Position numbers and translations under genes: made by a program | The notes under the pieces: model-generated | The model's database searches: none | What the model was told of the DNA's origin: nothing | The model's input: the letters and a program-made list of their open reading frames with translations, nothing else | IMG/VR virus record: IMGVR_UViG_3300046740_000195 | Location: 1 to 27,302 of that record | DNA: 27,302 bases | Source of the DNA: a virus | Reading direction: 5' to 3' (one strand) | Part shown: in pieces, positions 3,261 to 25,503 of the stretch | How the letters are laid out: the number at the start of each line of letters is the position of its first letter | Position numbering within the stretch: position 1 is the first letter of the stretch

Positions 3261-3971
3261 ATGGCCCTCGTAATCGATTCGCGCAGCTATCGATCCCCGA
3301 ACTTTAACGACCGTCCGCTGGGCGCGCGGATTGACGCGATCGTGTGTCACACGACGGAGGGCTACTGGCATACCGACATTGATTACTTGTGTTCCCCGTC
3401 CAGCGGCGTCTCATGCCATTACGTGATTGCGCCCGACGGGACGATCTATAGCATCGTCGACGACCAGAAGCGCGCATGGCACGCCGGCGAAAGTTCCTAC
3501 GCCGGGCGCGTGAATTGGAATGACTTCAGTATTGGAATTGAAGTATCGCATGTCCAGAATCAGCCGTACGACGCGCGCGTACTGCCCAGCTTAACCGCGC
3601 TGTGCAAGCAGCTCATCTCCATACACCCGATCCAGCGTTCCTATATCGTCCAGCACCGCTATGTCGCGCCGACACGCCGGAGCGACATGACCAACGTATC
3701 GGACGCGCAGTTCGAGAACTGGGCAACGAGTCTGTTTGTCGCGGCCAGCCGCCGCTATCAGGTCACGTCGCCATGCGCGATCTTTACGGATCGCCGCGTC
3801 GACGCGCCGCTGTCCGACGGCCCGGACGGCGGACAGACCCAGACATGGCTGGACGTGGGGGATGTGATCAACGTGGGGCAAATTCAGGATGGATGGCTCT
3901 GGGTCAGCGATAGCGAAACGACGCCGCCCGGGATCGGCTTTCTGCCGAGTAGCTACGCAAGGCCGCTATGA
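3261..3971 (+). CDS. Endolysin: N-acetylmuramoyl-L-alanine amidase with C-terminal SH3-like domain
   Basis: 236 aa, ATG at 3261 behind GGAG. Residues about 15-165 are an Amidase_2/PGRP domain: IVCHTTEG gives the first zinc His, then SCHYVIAPDGTIY and KRAWHAG, an acidic/hydrophobic strand (SIGIEVSH), and VQHRYVAPTRRSD for the second His and the position of the third ligand. The enzyme cuts the bond between muramic acid and the peptide stem. The C-terminal 70 residues (VGDVINVGQIQDGWLWVS) look like an SH3-type wall-binding domain. There is no signal peptide, so it needs a holin, and a candidate lies at 4853. It is unusual that lysis genes stand at the front of the late operon. Confidence 0.9.
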   Translation: MALVIDSRSYRSPNFNDRPLGARIDAIVCHTTEGYWHTDIDYLCSPSSGVSCHYVIAPDGTIYSIVDDQKRAWHAGESSYAGRVNWNDFSIGIEVSHVQNQPYDARVLPSLTALCKQLISIHPIQRSYIVQHRYVAPTRRSDMTNVSDAQFENWATSLFVAASRRYQVTSPCAIFTDRRVDAPLSDGPDGGQTQTWLDVGDVINVGQIQDGWLWVSDSETTPPGIGFLPSSYARPL

Positions 3972-5027: not shown

Positions 5028-5444
5028 ATGCCGCGCGCCGATCCAAAGACGAAAGCGCGCGCGGTCGCGGACTTACTGGACGGCGTCCAGCCGGCGATCG
5101 TCGCAGCGCGGTATAACATTCCGAGCGGCACGGTACGATCTTGGAAAGCCCGCCTCGATCTTCCTGCTGCATCAGCTGTTGCAACGTCTGATGCAACAGT
5201 CATCCGCAAGCCGGCGATCGAGCGCGCCCAGCTGGAGATCGCGGATCTGATTCTGGACAATCTCCGCGCGAAGCTGATCGCAACCCAAAGAATAGCTGAG
5301 TATGTCACTACACCGGACTGGATCGACAAACAAAACGCCGCCGACATGGGCGCATTATTTACAGCGATCGATAGCGCTACCACCGCTATCCTCGATCGCA
5401 TGGCCCAGCGCGGACGCAGCGCGGACGCCGCCGACGACGCATGA
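5028..5444 (+). CDS. terS: Terminase small subunit
   Basis: 138 aa, ATG at 5028 one base after the holin stop. The N-terminus is a helix-turn-helix (KARAVADLLDGVQPAIVAAR then YNIPSGTVRSWKARL), as in small terminases that bind the packaging site. A Thr/Ala/Ser linker (residues about 45-60) leads to a helical oligomerisation region (LEIADLILDNLRAKLIATQ). The gene stands directly before the large subunit. The linker DNA carries a compound inverted repeat (5168-5199) that could be the packaging site itself. Confidence 0.8.
   Translation: MPRADPKTKARAVADLLDGVQPAIVAARYNIPSGTVRSWKARLDLPAASAVATSDATVIRKPAIERAQLEIADLILDNLRAKLIATQRIAEYVTTPDWIDKQNAADMGALFTAIDSATTAILDRMAQRGRSADAADDA
5168..5199. repeat. 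Compound inverted repeat inside terS (packaging-site candidate)
   Basis: Two interlocking perfect 8-bp inverted repeats: TGCATCAG (5168-5175) with CTGATGCA (5188-5195), and CTGTTGCA (5176-5183) with TGCAACAG (5192-5199). They fall in the linker region of the small terminase, where protein constraint should be low. In P22 and SPP1 the pac site lies inside the small terminase gene, so this is a reasonable candidate (inference). Confidence 0.5.
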
Positions 5445-5490
5445 GCCGCCGCTGGACTGGGCGCGGGCGCAAGCGACGATCGTCCATCCG

Positions 5491-6690
5491 GTGCATGGCC
5501 GGCAGCCGTTCAGCCCGTATCCGTACCAGGCCGACTTTTTGACCGCGTACGCCGCGCCGCGCCGCATTATCGTGAAAGCGCGCCAGATCGGCTTTAGTCA
5601 AGTGTTCGCGCTGGAAGCGCTGTATAGCGCGATCCATGAAGCTGAGACGACGATATTACTTGTCAGTCGGTCGCAAGATTTAGCGGTCAATCTGCTCAGG
5701 TATTGTTATCTGACCTATGCCCAGCTGCGACACGCGCCCAGTCTGGTCAAAGAGAATGAAAGCGAAATGGGATTCGCGAACGGCAGCCGAATCAAGTCGA
5801 TCCCCGCGAATAGATCGACCGGGCGCGGCTTCGCGGCGCGGCGCGTCTACTTAGACGAATTCGCGTACGCCGATTACGCGGAGCATATCTATCAGTCGAT
5901 CGTTCCGACGCTCAGCGGCGGCGGCAGCTTAATCATCGGCAGTACGCCGAACGGGACGCGGAATCTCTTTCACGATCTGTATATGAGCGGCGACGGTTTT
6001 GCGCGCATGAGCGTCCCATGGCACGCATGCCCAGCGTACTATACCGACGACGAACGCGCCGCATCTATCGCGCCAGAGGACAGCGCATGGTACCGAAAAG
6101 AACGGCCGGCGTTTCCGAGTCAAGCATGGGCGTCGGAGTATGATTGCGACTTTACGGGATCGGGCGTGACCGTGTTTGCTACCGACGCGATCGACCGCGC
6201 GGAGGACGGCGCGACGGGCGATCAGGTCGCGCAAGCTGGGCATTACTATCTGAACGTCGCCGACATCGGCCGCCGACAGGATGCAACGGTGATCAATACG
6301 ATTGACATGACCGTCAGCCCGTACCAGCGCGTCGCGCACGAACGAATCGAGCGCGCGCCGTATCCTATTATCCAGCAAGCGTTAGAGCGGCGCGCAGCGG
6401 CCTATCCGGGCGTGACGGTCGTCGAAAGTAACGGCGTCGGCGATCCAGTGATCGAAAATTTGACCGTCTACGCGCAGCCGTTCACGACGACCGCGCGCAG
6501 TAAGGTGCAAGCGATCCAGGCGCTCCAGTTATTACTGGAGCATGACCGGCTGAAAGCACGCTGGACGGCCCAGGAACGCCGCGAATTGATCGGGTATCAA
6601 TGGGACGATAAGGCATTAACGCAAGATTGCGTGATGAGTCTGGCGATCGGCGCATTGTCGATCGCGCAGCTCGGGACACCGGGCGTATGA
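5491..6690 (+). CDS. terL: Terminase large subunit
   Basis: ATPase and nuclease that drives DNA into the prohead. Visible motifs: Walker A-like IIVKARQIGFSQ, Walker B VYLDEFA, coupling motif IIGSTPNGT, then nuclease acidic residues in NVADIGRRQDATV, VVESNGVGDP and LTQDCVMSLA. About 399 aa from GTG 5491. The start is unsure: protein-like sequence (DWARAQATIVHP) precedes it, but between the terS stop (5444) and 5491 the only other candidate is CTG 5452, and the nearest in-frame ATG (5302) lies deep inside terS. No good ribosome site is seen for any of them, so coupling to terS translation is likely. It overlaps the portal gene by ATGA. Confidence 0.92.
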   Translation: MHGRQPFSPYPYQADFLTAYAAPRRIIVKARQIGFSQVFALEALYSAIHEAETTILLVSRSQDLAVNLLRYCYLTYAQLRHAPSLVKENESEMGFANGSRIKSIPANRSTGRGFAARRVYLDEFAYADYAEHIYQSIVPTLSGGGSLIIGSTPNGTRNLFHDLYMSGDGFARMSVPWHACPAYYTDDERAASIAPEDSAWYRKERPAFPSQAWASEYDCDFTGSGVTVFATDAIDRAEDGATGDQVAQAGHYYLNVADIGRRQDATVINTIDMTVSPYQRVAHERIERAPYPIIQQALERRAAAYPGVTVVESNGVGDPVIENLTVYAQPFTTTARSKVQAIQALQLLLEHDRLKARWTAQERRELIGYQWDDKALTQDCVMSLAIGALSIAQLGTPGV

Positions 6691-8105
6691 GCGATAAACT
6701 CTCATTCTGGGATCTGCTCAGGGGGAAAATGACTCCCGAGCAGCAACAAAAAGCGCTGAGTATCTCGTTAGCGCCGAACGGCTTTGTCAACGAGATCCAG
6801 ACCATGATCGTCCGCGGCGGCGCGACATCGTACGGCGCGGACACGGCCGCGCTGGAAGCGACCATGGCGCAAAACGAATTAGTGTACGCCTGCATTCATA
6901 TCAAAGCGACCAGCGCGCGCGATCCGCGCTTGACCGTCCAGCAGCAGACGACCAGCGGCGGAAAGACGACCTATGAGGAGATCCCGGGCCATCCGTTTCG
7001 CCAGCTGCTCATGCACCCGAACGCGCTGATGACGGAGGGCGATCTGATGCAAGCGGCGATCGTGTCATGGGATGTATCGAATCCGCGCCGGTTCTATGCG
7101 GAAAAGGTTTACCAGAACAAGCTGCTGACCGAACTCCATCCGCTGAATCCGGCTTGCATGACGCCGCTGCTCAGTCGCGACCGGCGCGACGTGATCGGCT
7201 ACACATGGAAGGACGGCCAGAACAAGCGCGATTATTCCTTAGACGAATTACTGATCCGCGCCGCGCCGGCGTGGTACAATCCGCCGCCCTTAATCGCGGC
7301 ACTCGGCAGCGTCGGCGCGGACACGGCCCAAACCCAGACGATCGGCCAGTATTTTCAAAACGGCGGGATCCCGCCATTGTTTCTCAAATACTCCATGGCG
7401 CTGAACGACACCCAGCGCGACGACATCCGCGCGAAGTGGCGCGCGATCTACGGCGGCGGCCAGGCCTCCGGCGATATCGGCGTACTGGATGTCAACAGCG
7501 ACGTGCGCGAAGTGGGCAGCAAGCTTGACCAGCTGGCCAGCCAGACATTACGATCCGTCTCAGAGAGTCGGATCTGCATGGTGTTCGGCGTGCCGCCGCT
7601 GATTGTGTACGCCTATGTCGGCCTGCTGCGCGCGACCTATAGCAATCTCAAAGAGGCATGGGCGGGATTCTGGGATGCTACCATGTCGCCGGCGTTCAAA
7701 GAATGGCGCGACTGGTACACATGGGCGCTGCTGCCGGAGTTCGAGGACATGGCCGCTATTCGATCGGAAACGGTCAAGCTGGCGTATGACATGACCACGG
7801 TCGCGGCCTTACAAGACGATGTCGACGCGATCCAGGCGCGCGCGCGCGCGAACTTTCAAGCCCAGATCATCTCCCAGAACGAAGCGCGATCGGCGCTGGG
7901 ATACGACGCGATCGACGGCGGCGACGAGGCCTATTATCATCAGATCCCGGCCGCCGCGCCAGCGGCCGCGGGCGCGGCGGCCGGCAAGTCACGCAAGACC
8001 CGCGAAACGAAGGTCACGCGGCAGGCGATCGAGCGGCGCATGGAAAAAACGGTCGCGCGCTATCTCCAGGGCGAATACGACGCGGCCGCGCGGGCGGTAG
8101 AATGA
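6687..8105 (+). CDS. Portal protein
   Basis: 472 aa, start in the ATGA overlap with terL. It is a HK97-type portal (phage_portal family): an N-terminal region with ELVYACIHIKATSA, a core with LHPLNPACMTPLL, IGQYFQNGGIPP and VFGVPPLIV, and a long helical C-terminus ending in an Ala/Lys/Arg-rich tail. Twelve copies would form the vertex ring through which DNA enters and to which terminase and connector bind. Length and position between terminase and head genes are typical. Confidence 0.92.
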   Translation: MSDKLSFWDLLRGKMTPEQQQKALSISLAPNGFVNEIQTMIVRGGATSYGADTAALEATMAQNELVYACIHIKATSARDPRLTVQQQTTSGGKTTYEEIPGHPFRQLLMHPNALMTEGDLMQAAIVSWDVSNPRRFYAEKVYQNKLLTELHPLNPACMTPLLSRDRRDVIGYTWKDGQNKRDYSLDELLIRAAPAWYNPPPLIAALGSVGADTAQTQTIGQYFQNGGIPPLFLKYSMALNDTQRDDIRAKWRAIYGGGQASGDIGVLDVNSDVREVGSKLDQLASQTLRSVSESRICMVFGVPPLIVYAYVGLLRATYSNLKEAWAGFWDATMSPAFKEWRDWYTWALLPEFEDMAAIRSETVKLAYDMTTVAALQDDVDAIQARARANFQAQIISQNEARSALGYDAIDGGDEAYYHQIPAAAPAAAGAAAGKSRKTRETKVTRQAIERRMEKTVARYLQGEYDAAARAVE

Positions 8106-19539: not shown

Positions 19540-20212
19540 TTACGCCGGCATGGAGCATGTGCTGAACGCCATGCCGTGTTTCGTCCACCCGAACGGAAAT
19601 AGGTACGGGATCGCGATCGAAAAGCGCGGCGGCGTGACGCAGAATTTATCCGTGTATCGGATGCGCAACGGCACGACCGCGCGCGAACACGTTCACACGT
19701 ATACGGGCGGCGTGGACAGCGTCGCGCAGATCGCGGCGGGCGGCTGCATTATCCGGCCGGACGGCGCGCTGGAAGTCTGGGCGGCCGCGACGCCGGTTCA
19801 GTCGCCGAACGTGACGAAAACCGGCTTCGTCGGCGGCTTCTGGGAGCCGATCCCAAACGTCGACGATCCCTATACGCTGGGCGGATCGGGCGTGACCTTG
19901 TTTCCGCACCTCATGACCGCGCCCAGCTGGGAGAATCGCACGGTCGCGGGCGGCCAGTGGGTCGACGTGCCGAGCGTGTTCGGCGTGCCGGCGTCCAGCG
20001 CGTATATCGTGCGCTTTGTCGCCGAGTCGGACGCGGCCGACGTGCGCGTCCGCGCCGGGACGGATGTGTCGCCGTCGTTCTTGACCGTGAATACCCAGCT
20101 GCCGAACGTCCAGATTCACGCGCAAGGTTGGGCGCCCGGGCCGCGCTGCTGGGTATCGGTCGCGCAAGGGACGGCCCGGGTATGGATGCAAATTTGCGGC
20201 TACTCCACCTAG
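19514..20212 (+). CDS. Putative receptor-binding or virion surface protein
   Basis: 232 aa, ATG 19514 behind GGAGGAGG. Beta-rich: FVHPNGNRYGIAIEKRGGVT, NLSVYRMRNGTTAREHVHTY, AGGCIIRPDGALEVWAAATP, then a C-terminal domain with YIVRFVAESDAADVRVRAGT and WVSVAQGTARVWMQICGY. It is the last gene of the rightward late block, where receptor-binding proteins often lie. Its stop TAG overlaps the stop of the convergent gene (shared CTAG). Confidence 0.6.
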   Translation: MSLFTPLINYAGMEHVLNAMPCFVHPNGNRYGIAIEKRGGVTQNLSVYRMRNGTTAREHVHTYTGGVDSVAQIAAGGCIIRPDGALEVWAAATPVQSPNVTKTGFVGGFWEPIPNVDDPYTLGGSGVTLFPHLMTAPSWENRTVAGGQWVDVPSVFGVPASSAYIVRFVAESDAADVRVRAGTDVSPSFLTVNTQLPNVQIHAQGWAPGPRCWVSVAQGTARVWMQICGYST

Positions 20213-20733
20213 CTTTTCGTGACCGGATACGTCGCCGGCGCGGTCGTTCCATCGTCGGCGCGATAGGCCGGCGGCAGCGTCGCCGATCGACGGTCGCGGA
20301 CTTTCGCCAGCACGGTCGCGCGGTGTCCGCCGATCGCGCTATGGATCTGATTCGCGCTGAACAGCCAATTTCCGCGCTCATCTTTTTGATCGGCCATGGC
20401 CAGTAAGAATTGATCGCGGATCGCCATGTCGTCCTGATACGGGATCGCAATAGTATCAGCAGAACCGGGCGTCTCAGGTATCGGTACATGTACCGCCGCG
20501 GGCGGTATTTTTGTGTCCGCGTCCAGCAGACTTGACATATGCGCCCAGCCCGGCAGCAGATAGCGCGCGACCATGCGCGTCAGCCCATGGTAGCGATCCA
20601 GTCCCAGCATGGTCGCGACCTCGTCGGCCAGCAGCGGCACATGGCGCAAGGCGATCAGCGCGACGATCCATGCGGCCAGCCCGAACGACGGCCGCGCGAC
20701 CAGCAGCGCGACCAGCAGCAGATCGAGGATCAT
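20209..20733 (-). CDS. Membrane protein with C-terminal HTH-like domain
   Basis: 174 aa, start ATG 20733 in an ATGA overlap with the previous gene; the frame is open further upstream but would overlap that gene. Residues 2-35 contain hydrophobic segments (LDLLLVALLVARPSFGLAAW, IVALIALRHVPLL). Residues about 110-160 (QFLLAMADQKDERGNWLFSA, then NQIHSAIGGHRATVLAKVRD) look like a winged HTH with recognition helix at GGHRATVLAKVR. It would be a DNA-binding protein anchored to the membrane, coupled to the exported protein encoded just upstream. The C-terminus is Ala/Thr/Pro-rich. Confidence 0.7.
   Translation of the reverse strand: MILDLLLVALLVARPSFGLAAWIVALIALRHVPLLADEVATMLGLDRYHGLTRMVARYLLPGWAHMSSLLDADTKIPPAAVHVPIPETPGSADTIAIPYQDDMAIRDQFLLAMADQKDERGNWLFSANQIHSAIGGHRATVLAKVRDRRSATLPPAYRADDGTTAPATYPVTKS
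20491..20512 (+). terminator. Likely terminator of the rightward late transcript
   Basis: TACCGCC (20491-20497), loop GCG, GGCGGTA (20501-20507), then T5 (20508-20512) on the plus strand: a compact GC-rich hairpin with T-run. It lies about 280 bases past the last rightward stop, inside the convergent membrane-HTH gene. A 12-bp palindrome GGTACATGTACC (20483-20494) overlaps its left arm. It would end late transcription and make antisense RNA to the gene below it. Confidence 0.6.
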
Positions 20734-21458
20734 GGCGCACCTATCGGGCCGGGCATGGCGCCGCCGCTGCCGGGCGCATGACATCCGGTTCGCGGATAAA
20801 ACACCTCGCCAGCTGGACATGTCGCGGACGTTCGCTGGGAGAGAACCGCGGCCTGTTCGGCGCTGAGTGGCGGTACCGCGACGGCGGCCGGTTCCGCATG
20901 GGCTGGATCGGCGGCGTCCGCGACCGGCTTCTGTCCGAACGGCGTGTCGCCAGCGTCCTTCGATCGGACGCCGTTCGCGCACACGCCGTTGACAATTGGA
21001 AATGGACAGCCCGCCGGCGCGACGCTGCCGCCGTTCAGCGCCGGGTCGTTCAGCGCGTCGAGCGGCGCATCCGTCGCTTGGAGAACGTCGCCGCGCGGAC
21101 TATGCTCAGCTTGCGCGCCGACGTTCGCCAGATAGGCGCTATTGTCCTCCGGCGCGACGTTCTGAGCGTCGATTTGCGGCGCGGAAACGGGCGCGGCGTC
21201 AAAAGATACGGGCGCGTCCACGATCGGCGCTGGCGTGACGGCGGGCGCGACGGAGATAGGCGTCGGCAGCGCGATCATGATCGCCGGCGTCGGTAGCGCC
21301 GGCGTCGGCGTCGCTTGCAAGATAATGATCTGCTGCGCGTCGGTTTTGGCCGGGCCGATCTGGACGATATTCGCCCAGAGGGCCAGGCCGACGAGGACAA
21401 ACACGGCCATGCGGGCGATCGGGTCGTTCTTGTGCTGGATGGACTGATTTGTTGCCAT
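20730..21458 (-). CDS. Exported/membrane-anchored Thr-Pro-rich protein with Cys motif
   Basis: 242 aa, ATG 21458 behind GGGAG. A short charged N-terminus is followed by one hydrophobic segment (MAVFVLVGLALWANIVQIG, about residues 17-35), so it is a signal-anchored protein with its bulk outside. Then comes a Thr/Pro stalk (QATPTPALPTP, ALPTPISVAPAVTPAP), an acidic spacer, and a C-terminal part with CPFPIVNGVC and TCPAGEVFYPRTGCHAPG, four Cys that could form disulfides. The TPTP stalk is common in Chloroflexota surface proteins. It may be a lysogenic-conversion or superinfection-exclusion factor; function unproven. Confidence 0.75.
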   Translation of the reverse strand: MATNQSIQHKNDPIARMAVFVLVGLALWANIVQIGPAKTDAQQIIILQATPTPALPTPAIMIALPTPISVAPAVTPAPIVDAPVSFDAAPVSAPQIDAQNVAPEDNSAYLANVGAQAEHSPRGDVLQATDAPLDALNDPALNGGSVAPAGCPFPIVNGVCANGVRSKDAGDTPFGQKPVADAADPAHAEPAAVAVPPLSAEQAAVLSQRTSATCPAGEVFYPRTGCHAPGSGGAMPGPIGAP

Positions 21459-21459
21459 G

Positions 21460-21506
21460 GTAGCACTCCCGTTCTATGGATGGGTAGTGCTACAATTTGC
21501 ACTACC
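21460..21506 (-). promoter_or_regulatory. Leader with two mutually exclusive hairpins
   Basis: Upstream of ATG 21458, arms 21483-21490 and 21499-21506 form a perfect 8-bp hairpin (8-base loop). Arms 21460-21467 and 21486-21493 form another 8-bp hairpin that would bury the ribosome site next to the start codon. The two share 21486-21490 and so exclude each other. It could be an RNA switch, or the dyads could be operator sites. The layout parallels the leader at 3199-3247. Confidence 0.55.
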
Positions 21507-21574
21507 GATGATCTTCGCTCGTCGGTTCAGCATGAGGCGCGCGGGCGGCAGCTTCAGCCGTTCGCGCGCTGCTG

Positions 21575-21580
21575 ATTATA
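21575..21580 (-). promoter_or_regulatory. Possible -10 box of the membrane-protein operon
   Basis: A perfect TATAAT on the minus strand in the 124-base gap (21459-21582) between the 21798 gene and the exported-protein gene. No good -35 is visible 17 bases upstream. The rest of the gap holds the leader hairpins and no convincing gene; a protein-like frame without a normal start runs through part of it. Confidence 0.35.
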
Positions 21581-21582
21581 CG

Positions 21583-21798
21583 TTAGAACGGCGGTTCCCC
21601 ATGCTTCCGTTCGTAGCGCGCCGCGTCAGTCTCCGCGCCGCCCTGCGTCGCCAGCGCGCGCGCGACGTTCAGCGCGGCCTCGGCCAGCAGCTCGGCCAGC
21701 TGCGCCAGCATGGCCGGATCGTTGTCGCTCAGGTCGACCTGTCCAAGCGTGACAAGGTTCTGGGTCAGTCCCGGGTATTGGTCAATTGTGATCTTCAT
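21583..21798 (-). CDS. Small unrecognised helical protein
   Basis: 71 aa, start ATG 21798 in an ATGA overlap with the zinc-ribbon gene. It begins MKITIDQYPGLTQNLVTLGQ and continues with an Ala/Leu helix (AMLAQLAELLAEAALNVARA). No membrane segment long enough and no Cys. The last gene of the coupled leftward operon before the gap with the -10 box. Function unknown. Confidence 0.65.
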   Translation of the reverse strand: MKITIDQYPGLTQNLVTLGQVDLSDNDPAMLAQLAELLAEAALNVARALATQGGAETDAARYERKHGEPPF

Positions 21799-21905
21799 TG
21801 GCGCACCCGCGCACCACACCAATCGCAGTAATCAGCATGCGGGCCGATCCGCCGGTCGCAATTCCAGCAGACGATTGTACTAATCCATTGTCGAAGCGTT
21901 CGCAT
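21795..21905 (-). CDS. 36-aa zinc-ribbon micro-protein
   Basis: 36 aa. The ATG at 21905 is preceded by GGGAGAG; the stop overlaps the next start (ATGA). It reads CWNCDRRIGPHADYCDWCGA: two C-x2-C knuckles 10 residues apart, the layout of a zinc-ribbon of the kind seen in many small bacterial proteins. Too small for more than one zinc site. A nucleic-acid or protein-binding adaptor is plausible. Good ribosome site and coupling on both sides argue that it is real. Confidence 0.7.
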   Translation of the reverse strand: MRTLRQWISTIVCWNCDRRIGPHADYCDWCGARVRQ

Positions 21906-23639: not shown

Positions 23640-23764
23640 GATAGTAGCTCCAGATCGCACGTCTTGACCCAGCGGAGCATGCCGCGGAGCGCGATCTGAC
23701 TCCGATCGCCGCGGGTCGCGTAGGACACGACGCGGACGACATGGCCGCGGTAGATGGCGATCAT
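23636..23764 (-). CDS. Small 42-aa beta-type protein
   Basis: 42 aa. The ATG at 23764 overlaps the methyltransferase stop (ATGA) and the stop overlaps the next GTG (GTGA). It reads MIAIYRGHVVRVVSYATRGD followed by RSQIALRGMLRWVKT, alternating like a small SH3-like beta barrel. Function unknown. Coupling at both ends is the main support. Confidence 0.6.
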   Translation of the reverse strand: MIAIYRGHVVRVVSYATRGDRSQIALRGMLRWVKTCDLELLS

Positions 23765-24399
23765 AGCAGCACCCGCTGACTCTCGATCTGAATCTGTTCA
23801 GCTAAGAATCGACTATAGGCCGGCGGGATCGCCTGTGATAGCTCTTTTCCTGTCATCCAGTCGATCGCCATGGCCGGGCCGCAATAACTCCCGACATCCC
23901 CCGTAATGGTCACATGGCCGCCGGCCATGTAGAACGCCTTGCGCTGGCGCTGCGCTTTATGCCCGCCCGATCGTATGACATGCTGCGGATGATCGGGCTG
24001 AAAGATCATCATGGACGTTTCGAAGCGCCGATGTCGATATGTTCGCAGCCCGAACATGCCGCCACAAAGCATAATATAGTAATCAAGTGGCGCGCCCGGC
24101 ACATTTTCCATAATCCATGGCGCGGATTGCGCGTGGAGGCGCGCGCGGATCGGCGCAATGAGATCAGGATAGACGCGATCAGGATGAAGCGCGTGGAGCG
24201 GAGTGTATGCTTGACACGGCGGCGATGCCCAGATCAGATCATACCCGTCCAGATCGACGGTCAGCGCGTCTCCTAAGATAAACACATCGCCGCAATAGTG
24301 CGGCTGCGGACGAATATCCACGCCCGTAACGTGATACCCGGCCAGCTGTAATCCGCGCGTCGCGCCGCCGGCGCAACAAAACAGGTCAAGCGCTTTCAT
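23761..24399 (-). CDS. C5-cytosine DNA methyltransferase (short orphan type)
   Basis: 212 aa, start in an ATGA overlap. Motifs of 5-methylcytosine methyltransferases: I (LDLFCCAGGATRG), catalytic Cys in IV (ASPPCQAYT), VI (MENVPGA), VIII-like (YRHRRFE) and C-terminal X (LSQAIPPAYSRFLAEQI). The whole is about half to two thirds of the usual length; only about 50 residues lie between VIII and the end, so the target-recognition region is very small. Likely an orphan phage enzyme protecting DNA from host restriction. No endonuclease gene is adjacent. Confidence 0.9.
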   Translation of the reverse strand: MKALDLFCCAGGATRGLQLAGYHVTGVDIRPQPHYCGDVFILGDALTVDLDGYDLIWASPPCQAYTPLHALHPDRVYPDLIAPIRARLHAQSAPWIMENVPGAPLDYYIMLCGGMFGLRTYRHRRFETSMMIFQPDHPQHVIRSGGHKAQRQRKAFYMAGGHVTITGDVGSYCGPAMAIDWMTGKELSQAIPPAYSRFLAEQIQIESQRVLL

Positions 24400-25382
24400 C
24401 GCCGCACCCCCTTGCGCCGTGTCGAAAGCGACGCCAGCGCGCCCGTTTCCGTGTCGCCGCGCGCTAAGCGCGTCTGGACGTAGATCCAGTCCGGGCCGCT
24501 GGCGTCGGCGGGCAAGATGCGCCGCGCGATGTCGCCGATCGACTCGACCTCCGGCGGGCCGGGTGGCGCACCTCCGAGCGCGAAGCCGGGCCGATCGCGG
24601 TACGCTTCTGGGTCTAGGGGCTGCTGGGGATCGGGCGGCGCGGTATGCAGCTGGCCGCGTTTGATTGCGTTAAAAAAGGCGCCGGCGGTACAGAGTCCTG
24701 CGCTGATACGCTGCTCAAAATGCGCCCAGCTGGCGCGGATCTGTTCGGTCGTCACGTCCGGCCGGGCGCGGAGCGCGTCGCGAATAATCTTCGCGTCGGC
24801 GCCCAGTTCGGCCAGCAGCAGCGCGCGGTGATCGGGTGGATCGATCGATTCGGCGCTGCATGGTATCTTAGATCTAGCAGCAGCAGACTCAGAGTCTAAT
24901 GCTGCTGCTACTAGATCATGATCTTCCATGCATTGCGGATTCGATCGATCGGATCGATCGCTTTCCGTTTCCGCGTCCAGATGCGCCGCGTCGCGATCGA
25001 TCCGATCGATCAGCGCCGAATCGTCACGGTCTGATCGATCGATCAGATCGATCGATCGGTCGTCGCCATAGTCGCGCAGCAGCATGATCACGCCGCTTGT
25101 CGCATCGTAGCGAATCCAGTCCAGGCATGCAAGCTGACAGAGCAGCGCCGGGATCGGGCTGGCGCTTGCATAGCCTAGCCAGTCGGCCAGCTGGCGATTA
25201 CCCGGGCGGAAAGAACCGCCGACGCCGATATGCGCGCGAACGCAATCCAAGAGTCGACCGATCGGCGGCACAACTTCATAGGCGAAGGGATTACGCGGCG
25301 CGGTCGTATCTCCATTTTCCCTGACAGACGTGTCGGAATATCCGCCACTAGACAGGCTAGAATTGATCTGGTATGATTCCAT
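24396..25382 (-). CDS. Replication initiator / replisome organiser candidate
   Basis: 328 aa from ATG 25382, with AAGGA 8 bases upstream (GTG 25388 is possible but too close to that site). N-terminal residues about 30-105 look like a winged HTH (PIGRLLDCVRAHIGVGGSFR, NRQLADWLGYASASPIPALL). The middle is Asp/Arg/Ser-rich and low in complexity (RSIDLIDRSDRDDSALIDRI). The C-terminal third (AKIIRDALRARPDVTTEQIR; GAFFNAIKRGQL) is helical. The layout recalls lambda O-like or DnaD-like phage initiators, and the middle coding sequence is a dense repeat cluster, as in genes with an internal origin. Inference, not homology. Confidence 0.6.
   Translation of the reverse strand: MESYQINSSLSSGGYSDTSVRENGDTTAPRNPFAYEVVPPIGRLLDCVRAHIGVGGSFRPGNRQLADWLGYASASPIPALLCQLACLDWIRYDATSGVIMLLRDYGDDRSIDLIDRSDRDDSALIDRIDRDAAHLDAETESDRSDRSNPQCMEDHDLVAAALDSESAAARSKIPCSAESIDPPDHRALLLAELGADAKIIRDALRARPDVTTEQIRASWAHFEQRISAGLCTAGAFFNAIKRGQLHTAPPDPQQPLDPEAYRDRPGFALGGAPPGPPEVESIGDIARRILPADASGPDWIYVQTRLARGDTETGALASLSTRRKGVRR
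24838..25062. repeat. GATCGATC repeat cluster in the replication gene (origin candidate)
   Basis: Seven non-overlapping GATCGATC copies start at 24839, 24943, 24952, 24995, 25004, 25033 and 25046. Two pairs are spaced exactly 9 bp and one 13 bp. Such crowding in 225 bp is far beyond chance, even in this GATC-rich genome. By analogy with lambda ori inside gene O they may be iterons for the protein encoded there. The plain alternative is a low-complexity Asp-Arg-Ser-Ile protein segment. Confidence 0.55.
24871..24917. repeat. Long imperfect hairpin beside the repeat cluster
   Basis: GATCTAG (24871-24877) and CTAGATC (24911-24917) are the outer arms. AGCAGCAG and its complement follow inward after one mismatch, then ACTC/GAGT close the stem after a bulge on one side. 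The core AGACTCAGAGTCT is a palindrome around one base. It lies inside the replication gene between repeats 1 and 2 of the GATCGATC cluster and could be part of an origin. Confidence 0.5.
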
Positions 25383-25503
25383 TGTCACATTCCTTGGTGA
25401 TTAGATCAGCCGCCCGCGCCGCGAACGCATTGGGCGGCTGATTGCTTGTCCAGACAATGCCGGCGGTCGCGGCCGGCGCGTCGCGCCGTTCATGGGCGCG
25501 GTG
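25357..25503 (-). pseudogene. Open frame without a start, in frame behind the 25-aa peptide
   Basis: After the TAA at 25504-25506 the same frame stays open for 48 codons to TAG 25357-25359. Its last 33 residues look protein-like (IVWTSNQPPNAFAARAADLI, then TKECDNGIIPDQF) and overlap the replication gene start by 26 bases. There is no ATG, GTG or TTG in frame. Either the TAA broke a once longer gene of about 74 aa, or stop readthrough is used, or a rare start is used. Coding status is uncertain. Confidence 0.3.

Follow-up and report, generated by a model that had tools for sequence, protein, structure and literature searches.

A phage gene for a predicted membrane-anchored HTH-like protein carries a repeat array in its own linker-coding DNA

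The described systems that appear closest, by analogy, to the locus analyzed here are SpdA2/sps of plasmid pIJ101, protein p16.7 of phage phi29 and TubY. SpdA2 is a small DNA-binding protein whose gene is one of the spread (spd) genes that Streptomyces plasmids carry; the SpdA2 of pIJ101 binds a palindrome within its own coding region, the sps palindrome is short and present in 2-3 copies, and loss of either SpdA2 or sps lowers segregational stability (PMC4170104). Phage phi29 encodes p16.7, a DNA-binding integral membrane protein by which viral DNA is recruited to the membrane (PMC4974454). TubY, which belongs to type III partition (TubR-TubZ), is an HTH DNA-binding and membrane-binding protein needed for plasmid maintenance (PMC7762940). 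An in-gene site is also described for bacteriophage lambda, whose gene O has ori-lambda at its center (PMC3985674).

The whole stretch of DNA that we analyzed, referred to as the window, is a linear IMG/VR virus record of 27,302 bp. Its plus-strand genes encode terminase, portal, HK97-type capsid, tape measure and tail proteins; the Amidase_2 endolysin lies at 3261-3971, the integrase gene is located at the left end, and a leftward operon spans from about 26.5 to 21.6 kb. Genes A and B are situated between this operon and the convergent tail module. The last gene of the operon before the cassette is a small ORF of 79 aa (21583-21822, minus strand), with a homologue at the same place in the related contig L003 (1367-1579). 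A hydropathy scan of the window showed that A and B look like its sole dedicated membrane proteins, the hydrophobic stretches of the portal and tape-measure proteins being ascribed to chance. An Rfam search of the 19-23 kb region gave no match, and scans of genome contigs with B and with the tail gene as queries returned zero relatives.

Several other window genes were also noted. An XRE-type repressor-like gene (1543-1812) has a cluster of ATACTA/ACTAT words directly upstream (1830-1850), which are probable operators. Within the leftward operon, gene 25578-26510 matches PHROG DNA methyltransferases, and gene 23761-24399 resembles a cytosine methyltransferase as judged by eye only. Gene 24396-25388 (minus strand, 330 aa) has an initiator-like layout and no Pfam match; its middle part is encoded by CGATC/ATCGAT repeats (around 24943-25090, 10 CGATC within one 100-bp stretch), a candidate phage origin. 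A CTGATC cluster in L002 (at about 1146) may be the counterpart of these repeats.

Gene A (20730-21458, minus strand) encodes a protein of 242 aa for which the ORF, hydropathy and relatives indicate a membrane anchor, a Thr/Pro-rich exported stalk and two Cys pairs. The single hydrophobic segment is N-terminal (approximately residues 14-34; best 19-residue mean hydropathy 2.09), and the four cysteines, paired as C151/C160 and C214/C226, are all invariant in the A homologues of two relatives (L002, 61% identity; L003, 54%). Gene B (20209-20733, minus strand; ORF and AlphaFold2) encodes 174 aa counted from the ATG, with a hydrophobic N-terminus, a linker, an HTH-like C-terminal domain and a conserved C-tail; the two reading frames overlap as ATGA at 20730-20733. 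The hydrophobic N-terminus of B comprises residues 2-31 (best 19-residue mean hydropathy 1.99). B homologues of 41% and 43% identity are present in L002 and L003, respectively, and a shorter one in L005. Judged by dN/dS (0.19-0.38 for A, 0.34-0.56 for B), both genes are coding and under purifying selection. Searches of A and of B gave no usable PHROGs match and no PDB match by sequence; in Pfam nothing usable was found for A, and B had no match at E<=1 and thus no assignment to a KfrA-type, MerR, TetR or other known HTH family. A tblastn search of B against named phages likewise gave no match.

In the AlphaFold2 model, B residues 99-149 (20287-20439, minus strand) are predicted to form a tri-helical domain, with helices 99-114, 127-134 and 138-149 in an HTH arrangement. 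In the full protein the C-terminal part had a pLDDT of about 80; folded alone with ten sequences, the domain reached 82-88. No single Foldseek match in the PDB was significant; by our own reading, the top 50 consisted mostly of DNA-binding proteins with an HTH, among them homeodomains, TrpR, BirA, TetR-type regulators and the centromere-binding TubR. These results support an "HTH-like" C-terminal domain, with no specific family supported. An earlier sequence-only reading had described two genes overlapping by ATGA, an exported surface-type protein with four Cys and a TM protein with an HTH-like domain; the overlap and the invariant Cys residues are present as described, and hydropathy, the Thr/Pro stalk and the predicted B helices agree with the remainder.

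That reading overlooked what is the main feature of the locus, an array of short repeats in the DNA coding for the linker of B (20436-20494). Within 59 bp there are five GRTAC/GTAYC half-sites (20436, 20453, 20478, 20483 and 20490) which vary in frame and orientation; positions 20483-20494 form the palindrome GGTACATGTACC. As raw k-mer counts are dominated by G+C-rich words and were uninformative, the significance of motifs was evaluated by background-corrected ranking and synonymous recoding. GRTAC density in the window reaches 5 per 80 bp in the array and is <=3 per 80 bp elsewhere; when the B protein was recoded synonymously 5,000 times, the array had p=0.0016, and the corresponding values for L002, L003 and L005 were 0.0002, 0.0002 and 0.0074. 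The palindrome GRTACATGTAYC, searched across the window, did not occur outside the B linker. Between phages the array palindrome differs on both arms in a compensatory manner (GGTACATGTACC vs. GATACATGTATC), and GRTAC sites occupy different reading frames from phage to phage. In L002, L003 and L005 the array is flanked by a 15-bp inverted repeat, TTATGTCACGATCGG...CCGATCGTGACATAA, with zero changes in any copy.

Linker clusters were also found in eleven other phage contigs whose B gene sits in an equivalent cassette, with a motif that varies by subtype. Six types were distinguished, each represented by few sequences: GRTAC (window, L002, L003, L005), CAGAC (L006, L022, L023, L043), AAACCG (L015), GAAC (L014), GAACC (L011) and ATACC (L045). 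In most cases few short-motif clusters elsewhere in the contig are as strong as the one in the linker, which for 5-mers was ranked first in L003, L006, L015, L023 and L043. L022, L023, L043 and L045, which were retrieved once the pattern had been stated and so serve as tests of it, all show a linker cluster, that of L045 being the weakest: there, GRTAC was not above synonymous recoding and the cluster did not take first place among the 5- and 6-mers of its locus. L011 was alone in having a linker cluster that did not exceed synonymous recoding. Part of the DNA repetition in the CAGAC contigs is accounted for by a repeated Gln-Thr peptide.

A further DNA-level element, the box TTATGTC(ACG), occurs at the border of the membrane segment and the linker of B genes in differing reading frames (L002 4648/4746, L003 2633/2746, G003 21467/21577, and also L022, L023, L043, L015 and L045). 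It encodes Met-Ser in some B genes and Tyr-Val in L015 and L045; at its position the window, L011 and L014 carry just ATGTCAAG. The conserved Met-Ser codons might have marked a translation start inside B, but this idea was abandoned, given that TTATGTC lies in a different frame in L015 and L045.

The sequence-only reading had also taken A and B for a two-gene module and suggested a search for the pair in other phages. The linkage recurs: A and B adjoin in L003 as in the window, one extra gene lies between them in L002, and A-like and B-like genes are found alongside other membrane genes in L005, L006, L014, L022, L023 and L043, yet in L011 B is present and no A was recognized. This wider cassette was probed with the neighboring tail gene, the 4TM gene and the B subtypes. 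Its members are an exported TM-stalk protein, often with a small terminal Cys loop (L005, L006, L014, L022, L023, L043), a 4TM protein (L005, L006, L011, L014, L015, L022, L023, L043, L045) and, in some, a multi-TM protein with a C-terminal HTH (L014, L015, L045); the B-type gene is the final gene. Exported wall-hydrolase-like proteins with a similar N-terminal domain are encoded within the cassettes of L014 (14486-15403, M23 peptidase) and L043 (2322-3341, weak VanW match). The 4TM and multi-TM genes of the relatives gave no match when compared with phages and plasmids. In L006 (1632-1690), where the B gene has been exchanged, DNA for the conserved C-tail of B (QFRQDDGSTAPAEYPVTK) persists beyond the stop codon of that gene, and this remnant is a trace of recombinational cassette replacement.

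Upstream of A, none of 200 shuffles of the leader folded as stably as the leader itself (z=-5.2). A G+C-rich hairpin identified by folding (21527-21575, minus strand) lies between the upstream operon and A and is kept in four relatives (L002, L003, L005, L006) with an almost invariant loop: CCGAGTGCATGCCACGCCCGG is identical in L003 (1624-1644), L005 (4154-4174) and L006 (186-206), and L002 has one change. Pair covariation in the hairpin is weak; the loop is conserved beyond what pairing alone needs. L014 and L023 have other hairpins at this position. Downstream, folding and relatives define a palindrome, GGTAGTGC-N8-GCACTACC, around a conserved core ATTGTAGCRC (21483-21506, minus strand); its 3' arm could alternatively pair with 21460-21470, over the ribosome-binding site, and the alternative leader hairpins are at most a candidate switch. 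The combination CTGAAC-N28-ATTGTAGCRC follows the hairpin in the window, L005 and L006, where it lies within a palindrome with differing arms, and occurs with other spacing in L002 and L003. The upstream hairpin may belong to the mRNA leader, act as a terminator located before the true promoter, or do both. The sequence-only reading had noted a structured leader and a TATAAT box; the strong fold and conserved hairpin uphold the former, but the TATAAT at 21575-21580 is absent from the relatives, which read AGAATCA or similar at its position, and a promoter scan found nothing.

Compared with the described systems, the locus shares with SpdA2/sps a sequence feature, namely repeats inside the coding region of the putative binding protein. 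However, SpdA2 has a zinc-finger-like N-terminal domain, whereas the predicted DNA-binding domain of B is C-terminal, and B has a predicted membrane anchor, none being reported there for SpdA2 (PMC4170104). The sps motif is constant across plasmids, whereas the motif of the B array changes between subtypes; the sps palindrome CGTCACGTGACG had 0 matches in the window at <=2 mismatches. The layout of p16.7 is approached by B in its predicted N-terminal membrane segment and C-terminal DNA-binding domain, but p16.7 binds displaced single strands and terminal protein, with no in-gene site array of its own reported (PMC4974454). Homology of the two received no support from Pfam or PHROGs, and p16.7 was absent among the Foldseek matches listed. 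B and TubY would have in common an HTH and membrane association, and TubR recurs among the Foldseek matches to B at a similarity that is not significant; TubY differs in having a coiled coil and an amphipathic helix and in working with the TubZ GTPase, and no such motor was noticed here. With lambda O the likeness, again at the level of sequence, is that iteron-type sites lie within the gene of their putative binding protein, but O is a soluble replication initiator, whereas B appears membrane-anchored and another window gene looks like an initiator. The linked ParA-type ATPase that marks type I ParABS was found near the cassette in none of the B-bearing records. The sole AAA_31 gene was seen in L010, a 7-kb record of a phage with a related tail gene, where ParA (AAA_31) and a ParB-like gene are among the leftward genes (5038-7236) and no B gene was seen.

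The combination of a membrane anchor, a DNA-binding domain and one dense candidate in-gene site is best interpreted as a tether between DNA and membrane: B may be a membrane-anchored, sequence-specific DNA-binding protein, the array its site, and the phage genome thereby held at the membrane, a reading to which we give a probability of about 0.5. The HTH-like domain would bind a single cis-site, the array in B's own linker-coding DNA, and B bound there would hold the phage genome on the cytoplasmic membrane, positioning it for segregation, as an episomal prophage, or for replication. On the envelope side, the anchor would be made up of A and, in relatives, the extra membrane or wall genes, possibly through an A-B interaction. 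In favor of tethering are the predicted membrane segment at one end of B and the predicted HTH at the other, the excess of the array over synonymous recoding in the window, L002, L003 and L005, the linker clusters across B subtypes, four of them in contigs retrieved once the pattern had been stated, the mixed frames and orientations of the motifs, the compensatory palindrome, the unchanged bracketing repeat and the SpdA2/sps precedent. Against it count the lack of a ParA-like ATPase with the cassette, of a significant Foldseek match and of strong array statistics in L011 and L045, as well as the Gln-Thr peptide behind part of the CAGAC repetition. The window phage also has an integrase, and as an integrated prophage needs no partition, this function is not obviously required.

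Other explanations account for parts of these observations. The sequence-only reading had suggested an outside-to-DNA signalling pair, and a membrane-bound transcription regulator, with A sensing the outside and anchored B altering phage transcription, would agree with the membrane and HTH parts joined in B and with an exported A bearing conserved Cys pairs. One-piece membrane regulators of the ToxR/CadC type exist. Yet the sole dense candidate sites fall in the middle of B, within its linker and about 960-1020 bp downstream of the A start rather than at a promoter, and L011 carries B without a recognizable A. A transcriptional role is also less likely because the palindrome is found nowhere else in the window, which together with the low GRTAC density elsewhere gives no sign of a regulon; signalling thus received no specific support, and we consider it unlikely. 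HTH proteins often autoregulate, and since the candidate sites fall inside B itself, the array could be a road-block or operator limiting B's own expression, with no structural role. Such a site would, however, lie deep within B, the second gene in the unit, and neither the membrane anchor nor the 15-bp bracketing inverted repeat would be explained, which makes autoregulation quite improbable.

A lysis or envelope-attack cassette, in which A, B and the 4TM and wall-hydrolase genes would be holin- or spanin-like and the HTH incidental, is suggested by the apparent status of A and B as the only dedicated membrane proteins of a window whose endolysin has no other holin candidate, and by the exported wall-hydrolase-like proteins of L014 and L043. 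It becomes less likely because G003 and G011 hold separate two-TM holin-like genes close to their endolysins; moreover, the window's cassette is not adjacent to the endolysin, and the array and the HTH would remain unexplained, so that we regard it as rather improbable. Alternatively, phage replication might start at the array, with B as its membrane-bound initiator, given that origins within initiator genes are known, as with ori-lambda in mid-gene O (PMC3985674). B has no similarity to any initiator family, and because gene 24396-25388 with its own repeat cluster is the better origin candidate, this is the least probable of the explanations considered.

Beyond a DNA-to-membrane tether in the strict sense, the cassette could represent a phage-borne, envelope-spanning apparatus for anchoring or transferring DNA, in which no NTPase was noticed, composed of a membrane-tethered HTH protein reading a private array within its gene, an exported stalk protein with a Cys loop, a 4TM protein and, in relatives, a secreted wall hydrolase and a second, multi-TM HTH protein. 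We consider this broader proposal doubtful, if somewhat less so than the rival explanations above. Such an apparatus would keep the DNA of the phage in place at the envelope or septum; its DNA code, like an incompatibility determinant, would become diverse among phages.

If the tether reading is true, the locus of these uncultured temperate phages would be a compact device that keeps a protein and a DNA address in one gene and links that address to the membrane. It would provide a simple model of how DNA tethered to the membrane can be positioned with no motor protein, a model for the joint change of a DNA-binding domain and its site, with six motif types on one scaffold, and a model for phage incompatibility. 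It would also offer a rule by which anchors might be sought in uncultured phages, namely repeats within the linker-coding DNA of a TM-HTH gene.
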